This document shows positions 49,648 to 64,000 of a stretch of 64,000 nt of DNA, one piece after another (position 1 is the first letter of the stretch; the number at the start of each line of letters is the position of its first letter). The notes beneath the pieces were generated by a model. The model had not been told where the DNA came from, did not search any database, and was given only the letters and a program-made list of their open reading frames with translations. The position numbers were made by a program, and so were the translations under genes. The DNA is from Thermoanaerobaculia bacterium. Lineage in GTDB: Bacteria; Acidobacteriota; Thermoanaerobaculia; Gp7-AA8. Location of the stretch: positions 1 through 64,000 of the forward strand of contig JADGNZ010000013.1 of the NCBI GenBank assembly GCA_017883205.1, written 5' to 3'.

Positions 49648-50130
49648 ATGAGCGCGAAGCCTTCCACCTATCCCGGTGTCGTCGAGATTCTCCTGGTCGA
49701 GGACAACCCCAGTGACGCCGAGCTGACCATTCGCGCGCTCACGCGTAACAACCTGGCGAACCGCCTCGTCTGGGTGAAGGACGGTGCCGAAGCGCTCGAG
49801 CTCATTTTCGGACCGTCAGCAGACCCCGAGACTCCAATCAATCACATCCCCAAGCTGATCCTGCTGGATCTCAAGCTTCCGAAGGTGGACGGCCATCAGG
49901 TGCTGGAGCGGATCAAGTCCGATCCACGCACACGCATGATCCCGGTGGCCGTGATGACTTCCTCGCGCGAAGAGGCAGACCTGCTTCGCGCATACAAGGC
50001 AGGCACCAACAGCTTCATCGTCAAGCCGGTCGACTTCGACAGCTTCATCGAGGCCGTTCGGGAGCTCGGCCTTTACTGGCTCCTGCTCAACCAGTCTCCT
50101 GCCGGAGACGCGAACCCGCTCGGATCATGA
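49648..50130 (+). CDS. Single-domain response regulator, Rcp1-like
   Basis: A 160-residue receiver without an output domain. The acidic pair is LLVEDNPSD, the phosphoacceptor Asp lies in LILLDLKLPKVDG, then MTSS, and Lys in FIVKPVDF. Rcp1-type receivers serve phytochrome-like kinases, which fits the kinase three bases upstream. Its last bases overlap the start of the hybrid kinase gene (ATGA). It probably carries phosphoryl groups within the pathway. Confidence 0.93.
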   Translation: MSAKPSTYPGVVEILLVEDNPSDAELTIRALTRNNLANRLVWVKDGAEALELIFGPSADPETPINHIPKLILLDLKLPKVDGHQVLERIKSDPRTRMIPVAVMTSSREEADLLRAYKAGTNSFIVKPVDFDSFIEAVRELGLYWLLLNQSPAGDANPLGS

Positions 50131-52445
50131 GCACGGGCACCAACATGAGCGAACCAATCCGTTTGCTGCACGTTGAGGATCTTGCCGGCGACGCGGAGCT
50201 GATCTGGCGCGAGTTGTCGCGCGCGGGTCTATCGTTCCAGCCGATGCGGGTCGAGGAGGAAGCCTCATTTCTCGACAGGCTGGTCACGTTCAAGCCGGAG
50301 ATTGTGCTGTCGGACTACTCGCTCCCGCGGTTCGACGGAATGCGCGCGCTCGAGCTGGCCCGGCAGTACGCGCCCGATGTGCCCGTCATCATCGTAACGG
50401 GATCGCAGAACGAGGAGACGGCCGTCGCCTGCATGCGTGCCGGAGCAGCCGACTACGTCATCAAGGAGTTTCTGTCGCGGCTCCCTGGCGCCATCAAGTC
50501 CGCTCTCCGTCACCGCGAATTGGAGAGCCTTCGGCGCGAAGCTGAGCAGCGATTCGCCCTGTTCATGCAGTTCCTTCCAGCACGTGCGTACATCCGCAAC
50601 GGCGAAGGCCTCTACATCTTTGCGAACGAAAAGCTGGGCGAGCTCTTCGGGGAGGCGGCAGCAGACATCGTCGGCAAGAGCCTTTCGGACTTCGTAGGCG
50701 CAACCTCCGCCCTTGAGTCGGACCAGAACAACGCACTCGTCCTGGCCAGCGGCACGCCGCAGTTGTTCGAAGAAACGATCGTCGTCGGTGGAGAGGAGCA
50801 CACCTACCTCTCCTCGAAGTTTCCGATCGTCCAGCACGATGGAAGCCGCCTCCTCGGCGGAACATCCATCGACATCACGGACAGAAAACGCGCGGCCGAA
50901 GCGGTCCTCAAGAGCGAACGCGAATTCCGAGCTCTGGCCGAGAATCTGCCGGATGGCGTCGCCCGCTTCAATCGTCAGCGCATTCTCATCTACGTCAATC
51001 GCCGGGTCGAGGCAGCCACCGGCTTGCCGCGTGACGTATTCATCGGACGAAGTTACGCGGAGCTCGGGTTTCCACCAGCGCTCGTCCAACTATTGGATAA
51101 CGCGATCGACCGGACGTTTGAGACGAACGAGGTAACGCATCTGGAGTTCGCGTTCGATACGCCGGCCGGGCCTCGCCAGTTCGAGGCCCGCTTCGTGCCG
51201 GAATCCGTTGCTGGGAACGAGCAGACCGTATTGACCGTCGCTCGCGATGTCACCCGGCGGAATCAGCGCGCCGCCGAGCTCCGCGAATCGGAGCAGCAAC
51301 TCCTCCAGGCACAGAAGATGGAGGCCGTGGGACGGCTGGCCGGAGGCATCGCCCACGATTTCAACAACGTTCTGATGGCGATCCTGCTGCAAGGCAACGT
51401 TCTCCTCCGGCTGGCCGGCGGGAACGAGGCCATCCTGAAGCGGGTCCAGGAGATTCTGAAGGCTGGTCATCGGGCCGCAGCACTGACCAAGCAACTTCTC
51501 GCATTCAGCCGCAATGAACCGGCAAACCGCAAGGCCGTGTCGCTGCCGCTCCTCGTTCGGAACCTGGAGGAGATGCTGCAACGTCTCGTGAGCGAGGATG
51601 TCGCGCTGCATTTCGAGCTCGACCAGGATTGCCCGAACGTGTTTGGAGATACGGGTCAGTTCGAACAGGTCGTCATGAATCTCGTGATGAACGCACGCGA
51701 CGCAATGCCGTGCGGCGGAGCCATACGCATTCAGGCGCGCAAGGCCGCGGCAGCCGAGGTGGACTCCGCTGGCGGCGTCCACAGAACGCCGTATGCGGTT
51801 CTTCTCATCACCGACACAGGCATCGGCATGGACAGCAGTACCCAGCAGCGGATCTTCGAACCGTTCTTCACGACGAAATCGAAGGACAAAGGCACCGGCC
51901 TCGGACTGTCGACCGTTTACGGGATCGTCAACCAGGCCAATGGCTTGATCCGCGTTGCCAGCGAGCCGGGCAAAGGATCGACCTTCAGCATCTTCTTGCC
52001 GGCAACGGTACACGGCGCCGATCGGCCAGCATCAGTCACAAGCCACGCCCTCGAGGAGAGTCTGCGCGGCACCGAGACGATCCTTCTCGTCGAAGATGAT
52101 CCCCTCGTTCGCCGCATCCTCGCGGAAACGCTGCAGACGAATGGCTATACCGTTCTGGAAGCGAGCGATGGAGCCGCGGCGCTGGAGATTGCCCGCCAGA
52201 GACGCCAAATCGATCTGTTGCTGAGTGACGTCGTGATGCCGAACGCCAACGGCATCGAGGTCGCGCGGACCATCGCAGCAGGCCGGCCCGCCTTGCGTGT
52301 CGTGCTGATGTCCGGTTACGCGGACGATGCGCTTTCCCCCTACGGACTCGATGCGCAGGATGCCGTGCTGCTCCACAAACCATTCACCGAGGAACGGCTC
52401 CTCTCCGTCCTGCGCGACGTGCTCGCGCCGCTCGCGAGGGCGTGA
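50127..52445 (+). CDS. Receiver-PAS-PAS-histidine kinase-receiver hybrid
   Basis: A 772-residue cytosolic hybrid kinase. The N-terminal receiver ([26 protein letters not shown]) is followed by two PAS domains. A DHp domain of the NtrB-like type comes next ([19 protein letters not shown]), then an ATPase domain ([31 protein letters not shown]). A C-terminal receiver ends the protein ([26 protein letters not shown]). The ATG at 50127 overlaps the preceding gene; an in-frame ATG at 50145 is also possible. It is the third gene of the signalling operon. Output genes are not visible here. Confidence 0.92.
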
Positions 52446-53524: not shown

Positions 53525-54796
53525 CTACGACCCCCCCGAACCACACAACGCCGTCCCATACAACGGCACAACATTCACAGTCACGGACGGTCCATTCACC
53601 GTCACCGTCAGGTAGTGAAAGAACGCGCCCGGCTTCCCCCCCTTCCCGTTCTTGCAACCCGACAGCGGCGCGCCCGCCCCGCCCGTCACGATGAACACCG
53701 GCTTCCCTTTGTCCGGCGAGCTTCCCGTGAACGGGCCGGTCGGATTGGACTGCGCCGGATCGACATACAACAGATGATCGTGCGACGCGAAGACAAAGGT
53801 CATCTTCGGATACTTCCCCTGATCGAGAAGATGCCGGAACGCCTCGACCTGCGTGCCGTAGTCGGACGTATCGCCCTTCGGCGCCCCGATCTGCGACCCG
53901 CCTTTGTCTTTGATGGGACGGTGCATGAAACAGAAGATGTGGGTGACCGAGGCATCGGAAGAAAGCTGATCGAGCGTGGCCTGCAGCGAGGCGAGCTGCG
54001 TCTTCCCGACGTAGCCGTTGTACACGCAGGCGTTCGCGAGCGTGACGTCGAGAACATCGTCGGTATTGATGATGAGGAACGCGGCGTTGCCGTAGCGGAA
54101 CATCCCATACGGCGGCGCCATCGAGGTCTCGTAATCGGCCATCATCGAGCCGCTGAAGTCTGGTAGCTCGGCGTCCCACGGATCGCTCGCCGTGCCGCAC
54201 GATATGAGCGTCTGCACCACCATCTCGTGATTGCCCGGCGCGTTGAACACCGGCACCGTCAGCGGCTTGAGCGCGCCGAGGAATTGCGCGTACTGCTCGG
54301 TGATGCCGACCTCCTGCTTGCCATACACCGTATCGCCATTCCAGACGACAAACTCCGGCGGATTGGCCGAAAGCCGCTGCACCATATCGAGCATCGCCGT
54401 CGTCAACGGATCCCCGCTATGCGCCGGCCGATTGTCGCCCGCCACGACAAAGGTGAAGCTCGTCGACCCCAGACTCGGCTCCAACTGCGTCGCGCCGGTC
54501 GGCAACTGCGTCATCGGGGGAAAGGGCTGGGCCGGGGGAGCGGGTGCTGCCGGCGCCGGCGTGGCAGGGGCGGACGTCTGCGCGGACTTTTTCGCCGACG
54601 CCTGACCCGACTTTTTCGCAGACGTCTGACCGGACTTGTTCGCGGATGTCTGCGCGAACTGTTTCGCGGATGTTTGCGCGGATGTTTGCGCGGATGTTTG
54701 CGCGGATGTTTGCGCGGATGTCTGCGCGGACGAAGTCTGCGCAGTCAGGGAGAGAGCCCAGGCGAGCACGGCGAGCGACGCAATGATTTTCTTCAT
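53525..54796 (-). CDS. Exported calcineurin-like metallophosphoesterase
   Basis: A 423-residue secreted protein. The signal peptide (MKKIIASLAVLAWALSLTAQ) is followed by a low-complexity segment with repeated SAQT units and lysine variants (about residues 20-75) and then Pro-Ala stretches. The catalytic domain has metal motifs VVAGDNRP, VVWNGDTVYG, APGNHEM, FCFMHRPI and ASHDHLLY. It probably hydrolyses phosphoesters at the cell surface or in the periplasm. The low-complexity repeat is encoded by 12-base tandem units (54651-54740). No nearby gene suggests a substrate. Confidence 0.9.
   Translation of the reverse strand: MKKIIASLAVLAWALSLTAQTSSAQTSAQTSAQTSAQTSAQTSAKQFAQTSANKSGQTSAKKSGQASAKKSAQTSAPATPAPAAPAPPAQPFPPMTQLPTGATQLEPSLGSTSFTFVVAGDNRPAHSGDPLTTAMLDMVQRLSANPPEFVVWNGDTVYGKQEVGITEQYAQFLGALKPLTVPVFNAPGNHEMVVQTLISCGTASDPWDAELPDFSGSMMADYETSMAPPYGMFRYGNAAFLIINTDDVLDVTLANACVYNGYVGKTQLASLQATLDQLSSDASVTHIFCFMHRPIKDKGGSQIGAPKGDTSDYGTQVEAFRHLLDQGKYPKMTFVFASHDHLLYVDPAQSNPTGPFTGSSPDKGKPVFIVTGGAGAPLSGCKNGKGGKPGAFFHYLTVTVNGPSVTVNVVPLYGTALCGSGGS
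54651..54740. repeat. 12-bp tandem repeat coding SAQT units
   Basis: Tandem 12-base units (gcggatgtttgc type) in the phosphoesterase gene; copies are near identical at 54669-54725. They extend the low-complexity segment and may vary in number between strains. Confidence 0.8.
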
Positions 54797-54909
54797 GCGC
54801 CAAGTTTCGCACAAAACAGGTTGCCCCGGCCCCGCCCCACCCCTATAATCCGCGCGCCGGAATTCTCCTCCGGCAAGCTGCCGTTAGCAGCGATACTTTC
54901 CAACATCGT

Positions 54910-55046: not shown

Positions 55047-57266
55047 TCAGACGGGCGAGATCTCGTGGCGTGCAGCGAAGACGTCAATCGCTACGTCGAG
55101 CAGGTCCTTGATCTTGCTGTCAAATGTGTCGGCGCGGCGGCTACACGCCTCTTCGAACGTTCGATCGCGCTCGCAGACGTACGTGGCCTCGATCAAGACG
55201 ATCTTACGCCGACCGATCAGGCGAGAGATCTCGGCTCCGTCCGTAATCGTCCAGCTCTCCCCGAACCGACCAGTTCGAATCAGGCGGCTGCTCCAGTATT
55301 CTTGTTGCGCTTTCTGCGTCATCCAATATCCGACAAACGTGTGACCGGTAACGAGCAGCAGCAGGGGGTGCACGCCGATGTACTCAGCACAGGCGGCGAT
55401 CAGGAGAGCGATGTCATGACACGTTCCGAGCTTGCGATCGATGACTTCGGTATGCGTGCGCACGATCTGGCCGACCACGTGCTTTGAGGTACGGTCAAAA
55501 ACGGGACTGCCCGGCGGAGAGATGTAGGTCACTTCGATCGAGTCGCGCAGCGTTTGAAAGATCGCTTTCATTTGTGTTGAGACATAGTCCGGCCGTTTGG
55601 AAACCGCCTGGTATCCGCAGAAGGTGTCGCCGGGATCGCCGAGCGTTCGCAGCACTCTCTTCGCAATCTCGAATACCTTGACTACGCCGTCATCCCACGG
55701 GTTCACAAACGCGGGGATGAAGGCCCATGAGTCCTCCTGGTCGAGCCATTCCTTGGGGCCCATCCAGAGCACGGAAGTTGTCTGACTGGCCAGTTCCACG
55801 CCGTTTGCCGAGGTCACGGTGGCCGTGAAGCTCACGCGCCGCCGACGACCGTGGCGCTCAACGAGCTCGTGCAACGCGGGGAAATAGATGTTCTCCACGT
55901 TGACGGGAACCACGCCCGTCTTGAGATGGATAGTCTGGCGGAAGATCGATATGTTCGCGCCGGTATCGCACTGGATGCACAGATTGCCATCCTGTGCGAT
56001 CGGCGATTCGATGCTAAGGTGCTCGATCGGGTGGAGGCCGTTCACCAGGAGCGCCGGGTTGATGGTTGGACGCGGGCGAAACTCCAGCTTTACGCCGGAC
56101 AGTGGCGGCGTCTCGCTCGTTCCAGGCTGAAGAACTATCTCGCCCCCAAGTGTTCCCATCGCCGACGTAGGCTGCCGTTCTTCCGAGGGGGCTCCGGTTG
56201 CGACTTGAGTCCGTGCTGTCTCCCGCGTAGAGGATTCCGCAATCGGTTGCGCGGCCTGAGGAAAGGGAAGCCATTCGACCCAGTCGGGAGACGGCAGCCA
56301 CACCGTGGGGACTTCGCTTCGACTCAAGGCCGAACCGATGGTACGCGCGAACGAGAGTACCGCCGCGATCGGCGAAAGGCCCTCCAGCAGGCGTTGATAG
56401 AAATAAAACGTGAAGTCGGCGGCCATGTCGTCCGTGACCAGGGCAGGCCAGCCGATGCTGAGCACGTTCAGCTCTTTGGCAACGTCTCCGCAGGCACGCC
56501 CTCCCGCCTCACACGCGTTAATCACCACCATCGACAGCCGCCTGTTCTCACCAAGCGCCTTGTAAATCGAGGCGAGCGGGATGAGCGAAAAAGGCGAGGA
56601 CGCCGAGGTGCGCGAGCGATCAGATGTGACAGGCAAGGCTAGCTGTCCGCCGTCGTCAATGACGGCTGGCGGCGAGAAGTGGAGAAAATCCGCCAGCGTT
56701 TTCTCACACTCGATGAGCAATTGCTGTCCCGTTGGCTCGATCACCACCCGTACTTGCATTCTCGCCAGATCGATCTTGCCAGCGAAGTCATTCATCTCAC
56801 GGCGTACGCCGGGAAGTTCGTATCCCATGAGGTTGGCCCAGCCGGCCATCAGCATCGTGAGCGAGGTTCGGGCAGCCGGAGGCCGCGTGGCGTTAAGACC
56901 GGCTACGCGCGCAACGGCAACATCACCGCTGATCGCCCCTCTGGGTATGAGTAGTTCCGACCACGGCAACGCGATTAGAACGGGGTTTACGGCATTGACG
57001 CATAGAACATTTTCATTGGAGGAGTTCGAGGCCCATTGCCGGATCCACGAGGCAAGTTTCGGCGGCTGGAACGCTTCACGATACCTCTGGATGGCGGCCT
57101 TTCGCTGCGATCCCTCTGAGAATTGGCACTGGACCAGTTCAGCTTTCAGCTCATTTGCGATCCCCATGGACGGACCAGCAAATTTTTCCCTCGCACCGCC
57201 ACTGATGATCTCAAACTCGATTCGCTTCTTTTGGGAAACGACGCAACGGATCGTGGCACTCTTCAT
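55047..57266 (-). CDS. CHAT-like domain - transglutaminase-like domain fusion protein
   Basis: A 739-residue protein. Residues about 130-310 resemble a CHAT caspase-like domain. The Cys motif is NACEAG (C252), but at the His position LHFSPPAVIDDGG (195-207) replaces the usual HFxGHG, so the catalytic His seems lost. Residues about 580-700 look like a transglutaminase/cysteine-protease domain with Cys616 (GTCHD), His642 (TGHTFVGYW) and Glu693 (IEATYV). The middle region, probably beta-rich, is unrecognised. The ATG at 57266 overlaps the upstream stop (TGATG); a GTG lies one codon earlier. It lies in the same strand cluster as a receiver-CHAT protein, which suggests a regulated protease cascade. 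Function is inferred. Confidence 0.78.
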   Translation of the reverse strand: MKSATIRCVVSQKKRIEFEIISGGAREKFAGPSMGIANELKAELVQCQFSEGSQRKAAIQRYREAFQPPKLASWIRQWASNSSNENVLCVNAVNPVLIALPWSELLIPRGAISGDVAVARVAGLNATRPPAARTSLTMLMAGWANLMGYELPGVRREMNDFAGKIDLARMQVRVVIEPTGQQLLIECEKTLADFLHFSPPAVIDDGGQLALPVTSDRSRTSASSPFSLIPLASIYKALGENRRLSMVVINACEAGGRACGDVAKELNVLSIGWPALVTDDMAADFTFYFYQRLLEGLSPIAAVLSFARTIGSALSRSEVPTVWLPSPDWVEWLPFPQAAQPIAESSTRETARTQVATGAPSEERQPTSAMGTLGGEIVLQPGTSETPPLSGVKLEFRPRPTINPALLVNGLHPIEHLSIESPIAQDGNLCIQCDTGANISIFRQTIHLKTGVVPVNVENIYFPALHELVERHGRRRRVSFTATVTSANGVELASQTTSVLWMGPKEWLDQEDSWAFIPAFVNPWDDGVVKVFEIAKRVLRTLGDPGDTFCGYQAVSKRPDYVSTQMKAIFQTLRDSIEVTYISPPGSPVFDRTSKHVVGQIVRTHTEVIDRKLGTCHDIALLIAACAEYIGVHPLLLLVTGHTFVGYWMTQKAQQEYWSSRLIRTGRFGESWTITDGAEISRLIGRRKIVLIEATYVCERDRTFEEACSRRADTFDSKIKDLLDVAIDVFAARHEISPV

Positions 57267-58138
57267 CACTTCTTCCTGTCGCGCGCAACACGCTTCTTGA
57301 CGCTTTTCGCACGCCCGACAGTCGCCGCGCGAACACCCGATACTTTCGAGCTGTCGTCTTCCGCGTCATCCCATGAAACGTTTTCCAGAACGCGATTCGG
57401 CATCGACCCCGACCGAAACGCGGCACGGCCAAAATCAATATTCTCATCGGTTCCGACAAGCCGATCAAGCAGGCTCCGCTTGATACGCGACACTCGAAAC
57501 AGCGGTGACAGTCCGGCCTCGGCCAGCACGGACGTCACTTCACCTTTTTGTGCGATCACGCTCAAAGAACCGTTCACGGAGGCGAGGGGGGCCGGGCCAC
57601 CAACCGGGACTTTTCCGTTCGCGGCCAATTCGACTTTTGAGTCCTTGGAATCTGATACCAGGACTGTTAGCCGATCGGCGGTCAGCAATTCAGTGACGAC
57701 GCACCAATCGACTTCCCAGCCCCGCTGCCGTCCCGGTTTCCTATAGAGCGTCAGGATTTCCTTTCCTACGCCTGCCTGGTTGTCTATTTCGCGAACGACC
57801 GGGGCTGTTGCTTGAAAGACAAATGCGCCCGATGAGCTGAATTCGACGACCGCACCGGCCTTCGCCTGCGGTATGGTCGTACCCGGCAACGATTGTCCCT
57901 CCGCCTTCAGTTTCACCGACACGGATGCACCAGAGGTGTAGGAAATGTCGGCTCCGGGCGGGCCGACGCGCTCGGCGAACTTGATGCCGAGCAGTTCGAG
58001 CGAAGTTTGCGGTTGGAATTCCCCATGGACGAGCCGCCCCACATCGCCTAGGCGGCGTGGCTGGTTCGGCGGCCATGCGGCGTGGTACTTGAGCTTTTCA
58101 AAAACTCCCTTCAGGTAACGGGACCACGGACGCGGCAT
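57266..58138 (-). CDS. Unrecognised protein encoded with the CHAT-transglutaminase gene
   Basis: A 290-residue protein with no recognised family. The N-terminus MPRPWSRYLKGVFEKLKYHA is basic and possibly helical. The middle is beta-rich (PGADISYTSGASVSVKLKA; GAVVEFSSSGAFVFQA). The C-terminus is strongly basic (RAKSVKKRVARDRKK). The start at 58138 is chosen because upstream codons are shadows of the SH3 gene. Its stop overlaps the next gene (TGATG), so it is tightly coupled to the CHAT-transglutaminase protein and may be its partner, target or regulator. No signal peptide is visible. Confidence 0.65.
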   Translation of the reverse strand: MPRPWSRYLKGVFEKLKYHAAWPPNQPRRLGDVGRLVHGEFQPQTSLELLGIKFAERVGPPGADISYTSGASVSVKLKAEGQSLPGTTIPQAKAGAVVEFSSSGAFVFQATAPVVREIDNQAGVGKEILTLYRKPGRQRGWEVDWCVVTELLTADRLTVLVSDSKDSKVELAANGKVPVGGPAPLASVNGSLSVIAQKGEVTSVLAEAGLSPLFRVSRIKRSLLDRLVGTDENIDFGRAAFRSGSMPNRVLENVSWDDAEDDSSKVSGVRAATVGRAKSVKKRVARDRKK

Positions 58139-58157
58139 AAGCCCTCCCTCATTCTCT

Positions 58158-58460
58158 TCATTCTCGTCTCCGAACGGCGTGCAGATACTGTTGCATGGCG
58201 TAACCATCGTGTTTGTTCCACGCCACGTGACACCACGAGCCGTCACAGTGATCTACTAACAGAGTCGATCCGCTGGGAATGGTGGCGCGAATATCCGATT
58301 GCGCATTGCGAGCAGCGCGCAGGATCAGGTTCACTCGGGCAATCGCCGGTTGATGCTCGACCGCGTTGATCGAAAGGCTAATAGCCAGAAGCAGCACTGC
58401 TGCCGAACGCCAAGCCTCGGACCGATGAGTAGAAGCGCCACGTCCGCGAACGATGTTCAC
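58158..58460 (-). CDS. Small exported SH3-domain protein
   Basis: A 100-residue protein. An N-terminal hydrophobic segment (SAAVLLLAISLSINAVEH) looks like a signal or anchor. The rest fits a bacterial SH3 domain: VNLILRAARNAQSDIRATIP, then SGSTLLVDHCDGSWCHV, then HDGYAMQQYLH. Two cysteines could form a disulfide. The start is GTG at 58460 with GGAGG eight bases before it. It is first in a unit with the unknown and CHAT-transglutaminase genes (19-base gap). It could bind cell-wall or peptide ligands outside the membrane. Confidence 0.75.
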   Translation of the reverse strand: MNIVRGRGASTHRSEAWRSAAVLLLAISLSINAVEHQPAIARVNLILRAARNAQSDIRATIPSGSTLLVDHCDGSWCHVAWNKHDGYAMQQYLHAVRRRE

Positions 58461-58718
58461 CGCATAGACCTCCGTTGGGGTGGATTGACACCTATATCAT
58501 ATGACGAACGCGCTCCGCCTGTTTCGCTCGCAGTCGCGTCGTCTCCGCGAATGCTGGAACGGTGGTGAGGAATCCCCTGTAACATCCCATTCCCCAAGCA
58601 CTTGTACCGAGCTTCGATCATCGCTGTCTCCTGAGAAATGCTAAGGAGGGTGCCGGATCGAGAAGCGGCGGGGCGCGAGCACCGGCTTCGATTCGTGGCG
58701 CTCGTGCGCCACTCGTAC
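58461..58718. promoter_or_regulatory. 258-base gap, candidate promoter of the SH3/CHAT-transglutaminase genes
   Basis: The gap breaks the conflict-type operon in two. An AT-rich patch on the minus strand gives a -10-like TATGAT at 58501-58496, next to a TCATATGA palindrome, about 35 bases upstream of the GTG start. No matching -35 hexamer is clear. No gene is supported in the gap. Confidence 0.3.
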
Positions 58719-60269
58719 CTACGGCTCGACGAGTGAAACCAGTACCGGACACGCCCACATCGAATTGTCGCGTCCACGTTTCGGGTCCGCAGCTGCAGCA
58801 TTACGCGCGCGAAGCAGCGCAACGCCTGGAGAGAGTGTCGTCATCAGTTCTTCGTAGAACGTAAGCGCAAACGCACGCGCAGCCGCGTCGGGAACTCTCC
58901 AACGGTGCCCGAGTACGGTAGGAACACCAGCGCGCGCGATCGCCTCAAGGATGCCGTGAAAATTGCCTTTACCAGCGTCCTTCGCGGTCCTCGCGCCGAC
59001 ACAGCAACTCAACACTACGATTTCGACGCCGCTTCCTGCAAGCAAAGCCTTCAGCGCTCCTGCTGAGAGAATCTGAGCCGATTTCCCAACATCGACGACG
59101 ACGCCGCTTTCTTCAGGAAGAGTGTCATCGAACCGGCCGTGACCAGCGAAGTGCAGCAGATGAACAGTTCCCCCCGCCAGACGCTCGCACACTTTGTCGT
59201 ACGTTGCCTCGGCATCCCTGAGAGTCGTGATCAAGTGAGGGACACCGATGTTGCGGAGGCTTCGCCGTATGCACGCTTCGATCTCCGCGACCTCGTCCTC
59301 CACTCCTGCGATCGTCCCATCGCTGTTGACACCGATCAAGAGCACGTTCAGCGGCTGATCGGTTGCCATAAGGTGCGCGATGAGGCTATGAAACGGTCTC
59401 GTTTTCGAAGCTGGAATGTCATCGATCGTCAGACGCCGAGTGATGATCGAGTCGAAGCAGAAGAAGTCATTGTCGCTCGTCATGAGCTCGAACGGAACAC
59501 GCAGCAGTTCGGAGGGACCGGCGAACTCAAGAACCGAGGGCACTCTGCGCGTCGACAGATGCCTCGCGGTGGAGATGACACGAGAGATCGCCGCGCGACC
59601 CATCAGCGCGTCGTAGAGATCCGCGCCAATCTGCTTCGCAGGCTGACGCCATCGCCCGCCACCGAAGTACACGAGTTGTTCGATCGCGTCGGCTCGGCGC
59701 CCAAATGCAGCAACGTCCAATCGTGCACGGGGCTTGATTAGGGTGAGCGCCTCTTGTTGCGGTCCGGAAATCTCGGAACTGATGATCTGCGACGAGCTGG
59801 CGACAATCGTGGCGCGGTGACGTTCGCTTAGTCGCCGCTCTGCGGCACGAATGCGACCGCTCACGAGGACGCGGCGAATGCGCGAGACGAACGTATCACC
59901 GGCAAACATTTCGGCATTCTTCTCGATAAAGTCGTCGACGTGATACTCGGCGAATGCGTTTCGGACGCGTTCCGTCGTCGGGTAGCCTGTGATCATGACG
60001 ATGGCGGTTGGCGCGTCGCGCGGACTTCGGCGGATCCGCGCCAGGAGCTCGAATCCTTTTTCATTCGGTACGACCTTGGTCGGCTTCACACCGGCGACGA
60101 GCGAAAGATCGATCGTCACCAACTCGTAGTCCTGTGAATTGAGGTACGACCACGCTTTTTCGATGTCCTCGGCGATGTCGACTGCGGGGAAGATCTCTCC
60201 CAGTCGTTGCGTAAGACCGCGGTGGATCTTCGCTTCGTCTTCCACCACCAGCGCACGCCGAGTGGTCAC
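58719..60269 (-). CDS. Response-regulator receiver - CHAT protease fusion
   Basis: A 516-residue cytosolic protein. Residues 1-130 form a receiver with the acidic pair VVEDE, phosphoacceptor Asp54 (VTIDLSL), Thr94 (MITGY) and Lys117 (IEKN), all intact. Residues about 240-516 form a CHAT caspase-like domain with His377 (LLHFAGHGRFDD) and Cys423 (VVLSCCVG), both catalytic residues present. Phosphorylation by the histidine kinase encoded in the same operon would switch the protease; this is inference. The ATG overlaps the stop of the upstream receiver-kinase gene by four bases. A direct receiver-CHAT fusion is unusual. Confidence 0.9.
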   Translation of the reverse strand: MTTRRALVVEDEAKIHRGLTQRLGEIFPAVDIAEDIEKAWSYLNSQDYELVTIDLSLVAGVKPTKVVPNEKGFELLARIRRSPRDAPTAIVMITGYPTTERVRNAFAEYHVDDFIEKNAEMFAGDTFVSRIRRVLVSGRIRAAERRLSERHRATIVASSSQIISSEISGPQQEALTLIKPRARLDVAAFGRRADAIEQLVYFGGGRWRQPAKQIGADLYDALMGRAAISRVISTARHLSTRRVPSVLEFAGPSELLRVPFELMTSDNDFFCFDSIITRRLTIDDIPASKTRPFHSLIAHLMATDQPLNVLLIGVNSDGTIAGVEDEVAEIEACIRRSLRNIGVPHLITTLRDAEATYDKVCERLAGGTVHLLHFAGHGRFDDTLPEESGVVVDVGKSAQILSAGALKALLAGSGVEIVVLSCCVGARTAKDAGKGNFHGILEAIARAGVPTVLGHRWRVPDAAARAFALTFYEELMTTLSPGVALLRARNAAAADPKRGRDNSMWACPVLVSLVEP

Positions 60270-61882
60270 AGCCCGAGGCGCTCCGCCAGAAGGCCGGCTG
60301 CTAGAACGCCATGCTCTTTCTGCACCGTGGCCATGTGATAAAAACGGATCATGTTCGTCGCGTAGAACATCGACGCGACATCGTAGTCCGGCATGTCGAT
60401 GCTTGTGCGATGGTGACCGTGTTTGGCGGCGATCGAACGGAGATGCAACGACGTCTCGAACGCCTGCTGCAACGACGGGTTGTCGGACTGAAGCTGACCG
60501 ACCGGGACACCTTTCGCGTCGGTTCTCCGGAGCTGCAACAACGCCTGTTCGAGCTGCAGCCGTTCGTCAAGGGTGGCCTCGCCCGGTCCAAGGATGGCGC
60601 AACGCGTGTAGACGTCGAGGAACGCGTGATCGCGAAGGACGTGACCGTGTCCGGTCCTGAAAAAGTCGATAAGCCACGTCTTGCGGTCAGGGTCGATGAG
60701 GATGTTGCCGCCGTTCAAGTCTCCGTGTGTAATACAGCGGTACGTTTGCGTGATGAACGGGCTTTCGGCCAATGGGATCGGATTCTTGATCGCTACCGGC
60801 GACGAGAGCGATTGGAATTTGAGCGTCGTACCGCCCTGAACCGTTTTCAGTTCCTTCCATGCCGTCTCGAGGTTGGTCGGTGTCATGCGCAGCCATGTTC
60901 GGTATTCCTCCGCCAAGTCATAGACCTCGGCTGACATAGGGGCCGCGTACCAGCGCGCGCATGTTGAGAGGAAGAGGTGGTCAAGGACTTGTCGGACATC
61001 GTCCTGTGATGCTGACGCGTAGAATGATGCGAACGGCTCGAACTCCTCGGCGCCGAGAAGTGAGTAAACGATTCCGCCGAGGAAGCGGGTGCGAGCAGTG
61101 GCTGCAATCGATGGCGAGCGGTTGCCTCCAAGCATCCCCACGACGTATTCGTCGTAATTTGTGTGCTCCGTTTCGATATCGGCGACGTCGCCGAACTTAA
61201 CAACAACCGGTCCATGTGCGACACCACGGACGACCGGCTGCACTTTCACTACGCCCGCTCCGCTCCGCCCACCTGGCAACTTCGAGATAAGGATGCTTTC
61301 AGCCTTCCAGAAGAGGCGGCAAAAGAGATCCTCGAGTTCCTCCTGAAAGCGCGCGAAATCTTTGCTATCCGGCCTCACCCGTTTCCCGGCGACTTTTAGG
61401 TTGAAGAGCGCGGCGGACGCTTCGCGCGGACCGTGCGTCCACGCAACGAGCAGCGACCGATTAAGTTTCATCTTCGTTTCGGCGAGTTGGCGCATCCTCT
61501 CGCCGAAGCTCTCGATGTGAAATCGCGACTTGTCCATAACTTCGTCGACATGGAAGTCGTGGAAGGACTCGTGAAGGTACTCCGGAAGCTCGCCGTAGTT
61601 CGAGACTACGACGACGAGACACGAATCGATCTTGCCCTCCGATCGCAGCTTGCCGAGGAGGTCCAGCCAATCGCGATTGCCCCTGCCACCCATGCTGATA
61701 TCGAAGATCAGCAGGTGAAAGTTCTGGCTGTCGATTCGGGCAACGCCTTCGCTCGGGTCCTTCGCGGTATCGACGACGAATCCCTTGACGCGCAGGATGT
61801 CACCCGCCAGGCGGCGAAACCGCTCATCGTCGTCAAGAATGAGCGCTCGGTAGGGGCGGATATTCACGCCGTCGGGTGCCAT
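60266..61882 (-). CDS. Receiver - aminoglycoside-phosphotransferase-like kinase fusion
   Basis: A 538-residue protein. Residues 10-125 form an intact receiver (LILDDDE, phosphoacceptor Asp61 in LLIFDISMGG, Ser94 in VVVSNY, Lys118 in VMDKS). The remainder is a kinase of the APH/choline kinase fold, with a lysine in GPVVVKFGD (K229), the catalytic loop THGDLNGGN (385-393) and the metal Asp in WLIDFFRTGHGH (D406). This resembles 'ternary complex associated domain' kinases of bacterial conflict systems, from memory. The start at 61882 overlaps the preceding gene by 19 bases. It may phosphorylate a small molecule or protein in the CHAT pathway. Confidence 0.83.
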   Translation of the reverse strand: MAPDGVNIRPYRALILDDDERFRRLAGDILRVKGFVVDTAKDPSEGVARIDSQNFHLLIFDISMGGRGNRDWLDLLGKLRSEGKIDSCLVVVVSNYGELPEYLHESFHDFHVDEVMDKSRFHIESFGERMRQLAETKMKLNRSLLVAWTHGPREASAALFNLKVAGKRVRPDSKDFARFQEELEDLFCRLFWKAESILISKLPGGRSGAGVVKVQPVVRGVAHGPVVVKFGDVADIETEHTNYDEYVVGMLGGNRSPSIAATARTRFLGGIVYSLLGAEEFEPFASFYASASQDDVRQVLDHLFLSTCARWYAAPMSAEVYDLAEEYRTWLRMTPTNLETAWKELKTVQGGTTLKFQSLSSPVAIKNPIPLAESPFITQTYRCITHGDLNGGNILIDPDRKTWLIDFFRTGHGHVLRDHAFLDVYTRCAILGPGEATLDERLQLEQALLQLRRTDAKGVPVGQLQSDNPSLQQAFETSLHLRSIAAKHGHHRTSIDMPDYDVASMFYATNMIRFYHMATVQKEHGVLAAGLLAERLGL

Positions 61883-62268
61883 ACGAGTGTGCGCAGACGA
61901 CGCTTTCGAGATGACACCACGGATTTTTCGATTATGCCGGCAAGGCGCTGCGCCGGCAGCAGCGGATGACACACCTCGGTGGCGCCGGAGACAAACAAGA
62001 GATGCGCCGCGCGGACATCGCAGTCGGTGACGAGCGCAACGACCGTGTAGTCGCGTGACAGCACTTCTACCAGCAACGCAAGCTCGTCATCCACGCGAGG
62101 CCAACTCACGACGATGGCATCGACCTCCGCGCGCGTTGGCGATGCGCGCAGTTCGTTCGTCGAGTGACAGACAGTCGCGCTCAGACCGCACGCAAGCAGC
62201 GACGCTGCAACGTTCGTCGCCCACGCTTCATCCTGATCAAACAACGCGATTCGAAGGGGTTGGCTCAT
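61864..62268 (-). CDS. Degenerate receiver-domain protein
   Basis: A 134-residue protein with a receiver-like fold: acidic start RIALFDQDEAW, a VVALVTDCD segment and a final helix. The phosphoacceptor position reads IVVSWPRVD, so the usual Asp is absent. It may bind partners without being phosphorylated. The start is ATG 62268 or GTG 62277; both overlap the kinase gene upstream (32 to 41 bases). Its position between the histidine kinase and two receiver fusions suggests a connector role. Confidence 0.75.
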   Translation of the reverse strand: MSQPLRIALFDQDEAWATNVAASLLACGLSATVCHSTNELRASPTRAEVDAIVVSWPRVDDELALLVEVLSRDYTVVALVTDCDVRAAHLLFVSGATEVCHPLLPAQRLAGIIEKSVVSSRKRRLRTLVWHPTA

Positions 62269-64000
62269 TTTCGACACTCACCTCCCAGTCATCAGGACCC
62301 GCTCTCGGAAGGCGCAACGTAAATGTTGTGCCTCGTTCAGAAGTCTGCGCCACAAAGAGTGTACCGTCATTGAACTCAGCGCGCCGAAGCGCGCTTCGCA
62401 GCCCCCAACCGGTATGGCCCGGCTTCGGATGCGACGCAGTCTCGAAGTCGCGGATGTACGCCTCGTCAATCCCGCAACCCGTATCGATGACGTCGATATC
62501 GACGCTCGGGGGATTATCGCGCACCGAGAACGAGAGCGTTCCGCCGTCCGGCATTGCTTCGACAGCGTTCGAAACAAGGTGGTTGAGAATCTTCGACATG
62601 TCATATAGGTCGGCATAGATTATCGGCGAGGGCTTCGGGATGTCGATGACGATGTCGACGCTCTCCGGGACCTGCGCATCCTTGATGACTTTTTCGATGA
62701 GGCTCTGCACGGATTTGTTTACCGGCTCGGGCACAGAGGCCATACGGTCCCGAACCGTGCGAATCAGTTCGATGGCTTTCGAGACCTCTACGTTGACTTC
62801 GGCGTATTCCTTCCGTGCCTTCTCGAAGTCGTTTTGCGCAAGCGCTTGTTCGGCGAGGGTAATCCAACTCGAGACGTAATTCAGGCCGCCGAAATCGTGG
62901 TGGAGATCGAGCGCATCCTGAGCCGTCGCTGACAGGATTACCGTCCGCTTCTGTTTCATTTCGCGCCGCAGGCTTTCGAACCGTTGCAGAGTCGAACCGA
63001 GCAGGTGCGCCAAACCCAAGACGAAATTCTTGTCCAGGTCTCCGAAATGATTTGGCTGTGGGTGGCTCAGCCCGACGCTTCCGTACGGCACTCCTTGGAC
63101 GATGACAGGAGCAATGAGGAGCGACCGCGTTTTCGGATCCGATAGCACGATCGCCGGCGTTCCCGGCGGCTTGTCGAGAAGATCGTCGATGCACTGCAAA
63201 TCTGCTGTTTGCATCGCCTGTCCGGTCAACCCGTCCTTCGCGTTGACGCGCGTGAAAGGGTCTTCTCCTGCGCCGGCGCGATGCTTGAGGACGAGATCGT
63301 CGTGTTGCCGATCGTACAGCCGCACGACCGCCAGGCAACCGCAGTGCGTCGCCGCAGTCTCGGCGGTGAGCTCACACGCTTCGCCGTAGTTTTCATGCGT
63401 CATCTCTGCCAGTCTCACGGCCACATTGACGATCTCCCTGCTACGCGCGATCTCGAAGGCAGTCACGGCCGCATCGCCGAAAAGCTCGAGCAGATGCTTC
63501 GAGCGTTCATCGAACGCATTCACGTACCTGCTCTCGACGTTCAGAACGCCGAGCAGCTCGCCGCTTCGGGTAAGCAGCGGCACTGCCAACTCGCAGTGGA
63601 TGCCTTCGATGCCGGCGTAGAGTGGGTCGTCCTGCGCGTCGCCCTTGGTGTAGTACGCCTGCCGCGTTTTCGCCACGTGCGCCATGATGCTGCGGACCAC
63701 GCCCTTCGGCATCGGATCGAGGCTCTTTTCGTGTACAGCCGACGGATGGCCGTCCACCATGTCGCAGAAGTACGTCTTCATCAGCTTGTTGTTCGCGTAC
63801 AGGTCGAGATCGGACCGCGTCGAATTCGTCAGCTTTAACGCATGCGTCACGACGGAGTGGACGACGGCGGTCGGATTTCCCGAAACCTGAAGCACTTGCG
63901 CCGAGAGATCGTGCAGAGCCTCGCGGTCCTTCTCCGATTTCTCGTACTCCTCAGCATTTTCGAGCGCGATCGCGATCATACCGGAAATCGCCTCCGTGAG
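62237..64000 (-). CDS. GAF-domain histidine kinase, 5' end beyond the window
   Basis: The frame is open to the right edge (LTEAISG precedes the first in-window ATG at 63979), and the sequence there reads like the end of a GAF domain, so the N-terminus is missing. The visible 587 residues contain two full GAF domains (VVHSVVTHALKL; CELAVPLLTRSGELLGVLNVES; LIAPVIVQGVPYGSVGLSHP). A DHp-like helix follows with LDLHHDFGGLNYVSSW, where His is the likely phosphosite, then an ATPase domain (LNHLVSNAVEAMP, DTGCGIDE, TGWGLRSAL). No transmembrane helix is visible. It is the probable kinase for the receiver fusions encoded downstream. Confidence 0.88.
   Translation of the reverse strand, partial: LTEAISGMIAIALENAEEYEKSEKDREALHDLSAQVLQVSGNPTAVVHSVVTHALKLTNSTRSDLDLYANNKLMKTYFCDMVDGHPSAVHEKSLDPMPKGVVRSIMAHVAKTRQAYYTKGDAQDDPLYAGIEGIHCELAVPLLTRSGELLGVLNVESRYVNAFDERSKHLLELFGDAAVTAFEIARSREIVNVAVRLAEMTHENYGEACELTAETAATHCGCLAVVRLYDRQHDDLVLKHRAGAGEDPFTRVNAKDGLTGQAMQTADLQCIDDLLDKPPGTPAIVLSDPKTRSLLIAPVIVQGVPYGSVGLSHPQPNHFGDLDKNFVLGLAHLLGSTLQRFESLRREMKQKRTVILSATAQDALDLHHDFGGLNYVSSWITLAEQALAQNDFEKARKEYAEVNVEVSKAIELIRTVRDRMASVPEPVNKSVQSLIEKVIKDAQVPESVDIVIDIPKPSPIIYADLYDMSKILNHLVSNAVEAMPDGGTLSFSVRDNPPSVDIDVIDTGCGIDEAYIRDFETASHPKPGHTGWGLRSALRRAEFNDGTLFVAQTSERGTTFTLRLPRAGPDDWEVSVENEPTPSNRVV

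Follow-up and report, generated by a model that had tools for sequence, protein, structure and literature searches.

A gasdermin-like protein beside a receiver-fused CHAT protease in a Thermoanaerobaculia bacterium: a candidate two-component-gated cell-death operon

Gasdermins are the pore proteins of animal inflammatory cell death, and bacterial gasdermin operons have reportedly been described by Johnson et al. in 2022. The bacterial genes adjoin those of caspase-like proteases, including CHAT proteases, together with NLR/NACHT or FGE-lectin genes, and the cues that activate bacterial gasdermins are a major open question (PMC9612521). Detocs is a defensive two-component system (PMC11249213), and TCAD and EAD domains are tied to the vWA-MoxR ternary conflict systems (Kaur et al. 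2020, PMC7159879), where histidine kinases were reported absent among the vWA-associated effectors (PMC7159879). Here we analyzed positions 1–64,000 of contig JADGNZ010000013.1 (GCA_017883205.1, Thermoanaerobaculia bacterium, Acidobacteriota), hereafter the window, in which coordinates are contig positions, and found an operon that encodes a histidine kinase, a receiver-fused CHAT protease and a gasdermin-like protein. We read it, with a probability of roughly 0.55, as a two-component-gated lytic cell-death (conflict) operon. To our knowledge, no gasdermin-type death system with sensor-kinase input has been described.

Gene content and signalling proteins

Open reading frame calling and a Pfam scan agreed on seven genes, all on the minus strand from 66346 to 55047, in the order GAF kinase, pseudo-receiver, REC-TCAD9, REC-CHAT, SH3 protein, 290-aa gasdermin-like protein and 740-aa pseudo-CHAT/transglutaminase-like (TGL) protein. 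The initial annotation had described a set of same-strand, overlapping or closely spaced genes, and this description holds: REC-TCAD9 and REC-CHAT overlap by 4 bp, as do the gasdermin-like and TGL genes, and the spacing between REC-CHAT and the SH3 gene is 258 bp (58461–58718, minus strand). No terminator-like site was found in that gap. Pfam backs the GAF, HATPase_c, CHAT, TCAD9/APH and SH3 domains and the two receivers in the operon proteins. The 8954 operon bases have a GC content of 59.3% vs 63.5% for the remaining window, and the TGL gene is absent from two congeners of the host (genome size 6.4 Mb), as would be expected of an accessory locus.

Extension of the contig past the window edge, which the annotation had called for, showed that the kinase gene reaches 66346 and encodes a protein of 1369 aa that has five or more GAF domains (66346–62237, minus strand; 62237–64000 in the window; 12347–8238 in locus L009). 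The protein was correctly called a GAF histidine kinase from its C-terminal part, the only part that the window holds: Pfam matched GAF_2 in five stretches (E=3.1e-60) and HATPase_c (E=5.4e-14), and the H-box His and the N, G1 and G2 boxes align with those of the kinases of related loci. The stand-alone receiver that follows (61864–62268, minus strand, 134 aa) is degenerate, as had been noted, since Ser replaces the phospho-acceptor Asp in the alignment (IVVSWP). A Ser also occupies the phosphosite of an Anaerolineae relative (L093 3907–4344; phmmer E=8.6e-6 between the two). Lacking this Asp, the pseudo-receiver should be unable to accept phosphate by the usual route, and its likely role is in tuning or docking the kinase.

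REC-TCAD9 (60266–61879, minus strand) joins a receiver (Response_reg, E=1.4e-9) to an APH-fold kinase domain (TCAD9, PF19974, E=2.3e-39). It had been annotated as a receiver-phosphotransferase; the receiver fusion is present, and its partner is the TCAD9 kinase domain, not HPt. Numbered from the GTG at 61972, the key residues are Asp91 of the receiver and Lys259, Glu269, Asp418, Asn423 and Asp436 of the kinase. Across 12 REC-TCAD9 homologues, no variation was seen at the receiver Asp and Lys (listed as D60 and K117) or, in the kinase domain, at Lys, Glu, HGD and Asn, and almost none at the DFG-type Asp. For the AlphaFold model (pLDDT 87.6), the structural matches are to APH(3') kinases and to CheY-type receivers. 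Because the catalytic residues are invariant and the predicted folds match, both halves look enzymatically competent.

REC-CHAT (58719–60269, minus strand) is a receiver-CHAT caspase-like protease, in agreement with the annotation (CHAT, E=3.6e-29; Response_reg, E=4.4e-11). Its receiver Asp54 and its catalytic His377 and Cys422/423 are intact, and all are kept in both relatives (L085 and L091, below). The two-component features are present along the chain: H, N and G boxes in the kinase, receiver Asp and Lys in REC-TCAD9, and Asp54 in REC-CHAT.

The gasdermin-like protein and its neighbours

The gene following the SH3 gene (57266–58138, minus strand) most likely starts at ATG 58138, which lies behind GGAGG, and encodes 290 aa with a C-terminal extension past a conserved core of ~225 residues. 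The gene, annotated as encoding an unknown protein, stands; its product is gasdermin-like by profile match to 7n50. Before any search, the motifs LGDVGRL..F.P and, later, YTSG.. had hinted at a gasdermin by eye. Homologues of 240–290 aa are encoded by Acidobacteriota and Planosporangium genomes and by Embleya, Gemmatirosa, Mesorhizobium and Streptomyces plasmids. A profile of the nine family sequences had a single significant match in the PDB, the Bradyrhizobium gasdermin 7n50_A (E=1.3e-4, profile positions 57–205; next match 0.72), which is collinear over ~150 residues. The match strengthened with profile depth, from E=0.47 with seven sequences to 0.0077 with eight and 1.3e-4 with nine, and was collinear each time. 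With the window sequence left out, 7n50 was still the top match (E=0.0088), and a control with all nine sequences reversed gave no PDB match even at an E limit of 10. As a yardstick, when 128 residues of 7n50 are taken as the query, the bacterial gasdermin 7n52 is matched over the same piece at only E=0.0032.

No member of the family, the window protein included, reached a Pfam, PADLOC or NCBIfam cut-off. The single NCBIfam match of the Mesorhizobium homologue was prok_gasdermin, at 11.9 bits (E=0.14; model cut-off, 100 bits). With all scores below the cut-offs, the family would be a divergent branch outside the one that the prok_gasdermin model covers. A tblastn search of plasmids with 7n50 fragments gave no match, and one further prok_gasdermin match (genome G973, E=9.7e-4) was judged to be due to chance, as this protein has 488 aa and an N-terminal hydrophobic stretch and is not matched by the family profile. 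Taken together, these profile comparisons indicate that the 290-aa protein is quite probably homologous to gasdermins.

A protease gene adjoins the gasdermin-like gene in the window and in five of the eight homologues. In Planosporangium mesophilum, genes for an NB-ARC NLR, a CHAT protease and a gasdermin-like protein that carries no annotation are consecutive, an inflammasome-like trio (L133 6343–11928). TPR-CHAT is encoded directly upstream of the gasdermin-like gene in Embleya and adjoins it in Streptomyces avidinii, and on the plasmid of Mesorhizobium sp. AR10 the gene is flanked by a caspase C14-FGE fusion and CHAT (L120 4379–13347). On the Gemmatirosa plasmid, a gene for a ProA-type TGL protein lies immediately upstream (L119 5465–7753), so that this pairing is found in two phyla. 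The Gemmatirosa TGL protein also has an apparent TIR-like N-terminal region, read by eye. Stretches no more than 5 kb from a CHAT gene make up ~1.7% of the host genome, so the neighbour pattern is unlikely to have arisen by chance. The host genome has ten CHAT-domain matches, which is rich for a single bacterial genome.

The two remaining operon proteins flank the gasdermin-like protein. The small SH3_3 protein (58158–58460, minus strand) was recognised by a match just under the Pfam cut-off (E=1.5e-5), which agrees with its annotation; its hydrophobic N-terminal stretch resembles a signal peptide or membrane anchor, and it may act at the cell wall. The 740-aa protein (55047–57269, minus strand) has both parts that the annotation named, CHAT-like and TGL. 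The CHAT half is a pseudo-protease: residues 150–309 match CHAT weakly (E=0.0014), with the His lost (HFAGHG to HFSPPA) and the Cys kept in an INACEAGG motif. Residues 406–739 match the NCBIfam anti-phage family ProA (NF058533, E=3.9e-39) and keep the cysteine-protease triad Cys617/His643/Asp677. TGL matches in loci L051–L054 belonged to other proteins bearing this domain.

Elsewhere in the window, 2.6 kb from the operon on the plus strand (49648–52445), lie a lone receiver and a receiver/kinase/receiver hybrid, which look like ordinary signalling genes. The gene at 53525–54814 encodes a metallophosphoesterase-like protein in which QTSA is repeated in a run at the N-terminal end.

A conserved core with a variable effector slot

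The order kinase, REC-TCAD9, REC-CHAT recurs in two further genomes of Acidobacteriota, and the conservation of this core, like the genes themselves, is all but certain. The proteins have 1273, 582 and 542 aa in an uncultured Acidobacterium (L085 in genome G394, on the same contig as L092) and 1272, 592 and 518 aa in Acidobacteria MAG9 (L091). In both relatives, identity to the window proteins is 36–39% over the length for REC-TCAD9 and 26–33% for REC-CHAT. The initial annotation had staked its proposal on conserved co-occurrence, which was found for the core; among the loci examined, the full seven-gene set is present only in the host.

Full-length REC-TCAD9 is rare, being found in 3 of 396 Acidobacteriota genomes. 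The kinase with REC-TCAD9 and without CHAT is widespread, and nearly all REC-TCAD9 genes examined, in Acidobacteriota, Chloroflexota and others, directly follow a kinase-type gene. This is so in L049, L086 and L093–L101 (in L094, two short open reading frames, one of them a receiver, intervene); the exception is L102, where a 690-aa gene without a Pfam match takes its place. The slot after REC-TCAD9 differs from locus to locus. It holds REC-CHAT, a lone receiver (L093), an EAD7-receiver (L094), an ATPase fusion (L097), a TIR fusion (L086) or a STAND-type NTPase, the last recognised by Pfam in L086 and by N-terminal sequence resemblance in L096 and L098–L101. Conflict systems combine a constant core with a swapped effector (PMC7159879). 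Because the kinase/REC-TCAD9 core is constant and the next slot varies, the family behaves like a conflict system. This behaviour, with EAD7-receiver, STAND and TIR in the swapped slot, together with the ProA match and the gasdermin links, supports the conflict or death role that had been proposed, and we consider a conflict role of the operon very probable.

A scan of genome contigs with REC-CHAT alone and plasmid searches with REC-TCAD9 and with REC-CHAT gave no match. In viral contigs, the REC-TCAD9 query gave only short APH-motif matches and the gasdermin-like query none. Weak TCAD9 matches in many genomes were taken as APH-type kinases.

Some of the related loci deserve mention in their own right. 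The EAD7-receiver of L094 (11673–12398) could serve as an adaptor through which effectors with EAD7 join the phosphorelay. L098–L101 and L086 (Chloroflexota/Acidobacteriota) combine an upstream gene (an S1-receiver-GAF-kinase in L098), a receiver-GAF-kinase, REC-TCAD9 (with TIR in L086) and STAND-like NTPases, an arrangement of which we know no description. In a further variant, L049 (5925–10077), genes for an SMC-like ATPase, a small histidine kinase and REC-TCAD9 are consecutive.

Proposed mechanism, rival readings and known systems

We propose that the GAF histidine kinase senses an internal cue, possibly infection, and hands phosphoryl groups to the receivers of REC-TCAD9 and REC-CHAT. Once its receiver is phosphorylated, the CHAT protease would be set free. 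The gasdermin-like protein would then be cut near its C-terminus, directly by the CHAT protease or via the pseudo-CHAT/TGL protease, and would form membrane pores by which the cell is killed or arrested. The part of the pseudo-receiver and REC-TCAD9 would be to amplify the signal or to give it a threshold. Besides REC-CHAT, the TGL protease may act as an activator, and its pseudo-CHAT half may serve for docking or be cut by REC-CHAT. We favor this chain from kinase through receivers and CHAT to a gasdermin-like pore as it is the simplest that employs the main parts; we infer which way the phosphoryl groups pass, that the receiver activates the protease, what the protease cuts, that pores form and that the operon acts against phages. 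Phospho-gated cleavage of the gasdermin-like protein, taken by itself, has about an even chance of being correct. The interpretation in the initial annotation is borne out in part: it named conserved co-occurrence as a test and proposed a conflict or death role, and overlooked the gasdermin-like protein as the likely substrate. The CHAT-TGL protein, which it had cast as substrate or second effector, need not be a substrate: the gasdermin-like protein is the likelier one, and the CHAT half is itself a pseudo-protease.

Several observations weigh against a two-component-gated death operon. The gasdermin-like gene was not found in either of the other REC-CHAT genomes (G394 and G498), so that REC-CHAT must have another substrate there, and the core and a gasdermin-like gene occur together in one case only, this locus. 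The 258-bp gap divides the operon into two blocks. The REC-CHAT genomes without a gasdermin-like gene and the gap would suit two adjacent systems on the same strand, a signalling block with its own substrates and a separate downstream SH3/gasdermin-like/TGL unit in which the TGL protein cuts the gasdermin-like protein; the Gemmatirosa gene lies directly behind a ProA-type TGL gene, and no kinase match was seen there. However, the two blocks share a strand, a terminator-free gap and a common lower GC content (59% vs 64%), and the CHAT-type pseudo-protease half of the TGL protein suggests interaction with the CHAT protease. We regard two separate systems as unlikely, though as the most probable of the rival readings.

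The identity of the 290-aa protein must also be weighed. Three of the nine family genes, all from Acidobacteriota, have no recognised protease neighbour. The single-sequence AlphaFold prediction gave no usable fold (pLDDT 33). Most, though not all, bacterial gasdermins have a palmitoylated N-terminal Cys, and a Cys near the N-terminus is missing in eight of the nine family members (the Streptomyces member has Cys18). With homology resting on profile scores of 19–25 bits, below the family cut-offs, the protein might be another beta-rich effector or adaptor in a conflict operon whose REC-CHAT and TGL are themselves toxic proteases. This is improbable, as gasdermin is the sole significant and collinear PDB match with a clean reversed control, and protease and NLR neighbours are a gasdermin signature. 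Less probable still is that the operon serves routine two-component signalling or a stress response and plays no part in conflict or death. GAF kinases and receivers are common, and flanking genes such as the metallophosphoesterase-like gene look housekeeping-like; however, the TCAD9, EAD7, STAND, TIR, CHAT and ProA-type domains are all known from conflict systems, and sporadic occurrence, effector swapping and lower GC content also speak against it.

If the two-component-gated death reading is true, the commonest bacterial sensing chemistry is linked to an ancestral form of pyroptosis, the family models tried have missed a branch of the gasdermins, and a kinase/REC-TCAD9/effector family is defined in Acidobacteriota and Chloroflexota. 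The receiver built into the protease makes the gasdermin trigger testable in vitro. More tentatively, and at somewhat less than even odds, the locus may represent a widespread undescribed class of bacterial systems for death or defence, with a histidine kinase that drives a receiver-regulated APH-type kinase and interchangeable receiver-linked effectors. In this locus, a caspase-like protease gated by phosphorylation would fire a gasdermin, giving pyroptosis-like death under two-component control.

The locus shares features with four known systems. With the vWA-MoxR ternary systems it shares TCAD9, EAD7, STAND and caspase-type modules and effector swapping; in contrast, it is driven by a histidine kinase, and membership was rejected because Pfam found neither vWA nor MoxR among the operon proteins. 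Residues 406–739 of the 740-aa protein correspond to ProA positions 3–311, whereas the remainder of the 1903-aa model is missing and an N-terminal pseudo-CHAT stands in its place. Detocs reportedly comprises a TPR histidine kinase, DtcA, a receiver-PNP effector, DtcC, and an extra receiver that acts as a phosphate sink. Our locus follows the same logic, in which a kinase is joined by one more receiver protein and by an effector with a receiver of its own; it differs in its GAF sensor, CHAT, receiver-APH-fold kinase and Asp-less receiver. Membership in Detocs was rejected, as there is no TPR kinase and CHAT is in place of PNP; a library scan of the operon proteins gave no clear Detocs match, with the library's coverage of Detocs unchecked. 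As in the bacterial gasdermin operons (PMC9612521, PMC10989679), a gasdermin-like protein of ~240–290 aa lies beside CHAT/caspase-type proteases, and relatives of the window protein have NLR-CHAT-gasdermin and caspase-FGE neighbours. Those operons use NLR/NACHT or lectin-type sensors, whereas this one takes its input through a histidine kinase and a protease with a fused receiver; its gasdermin-like protein is divergent, below family cut-offs, without an N-terminal Cys and partnered with a ProA-type TGL protein. On our best reading, the logic of the operon resembles Detocs, and its output resembles the bacterial gasdermin operons.

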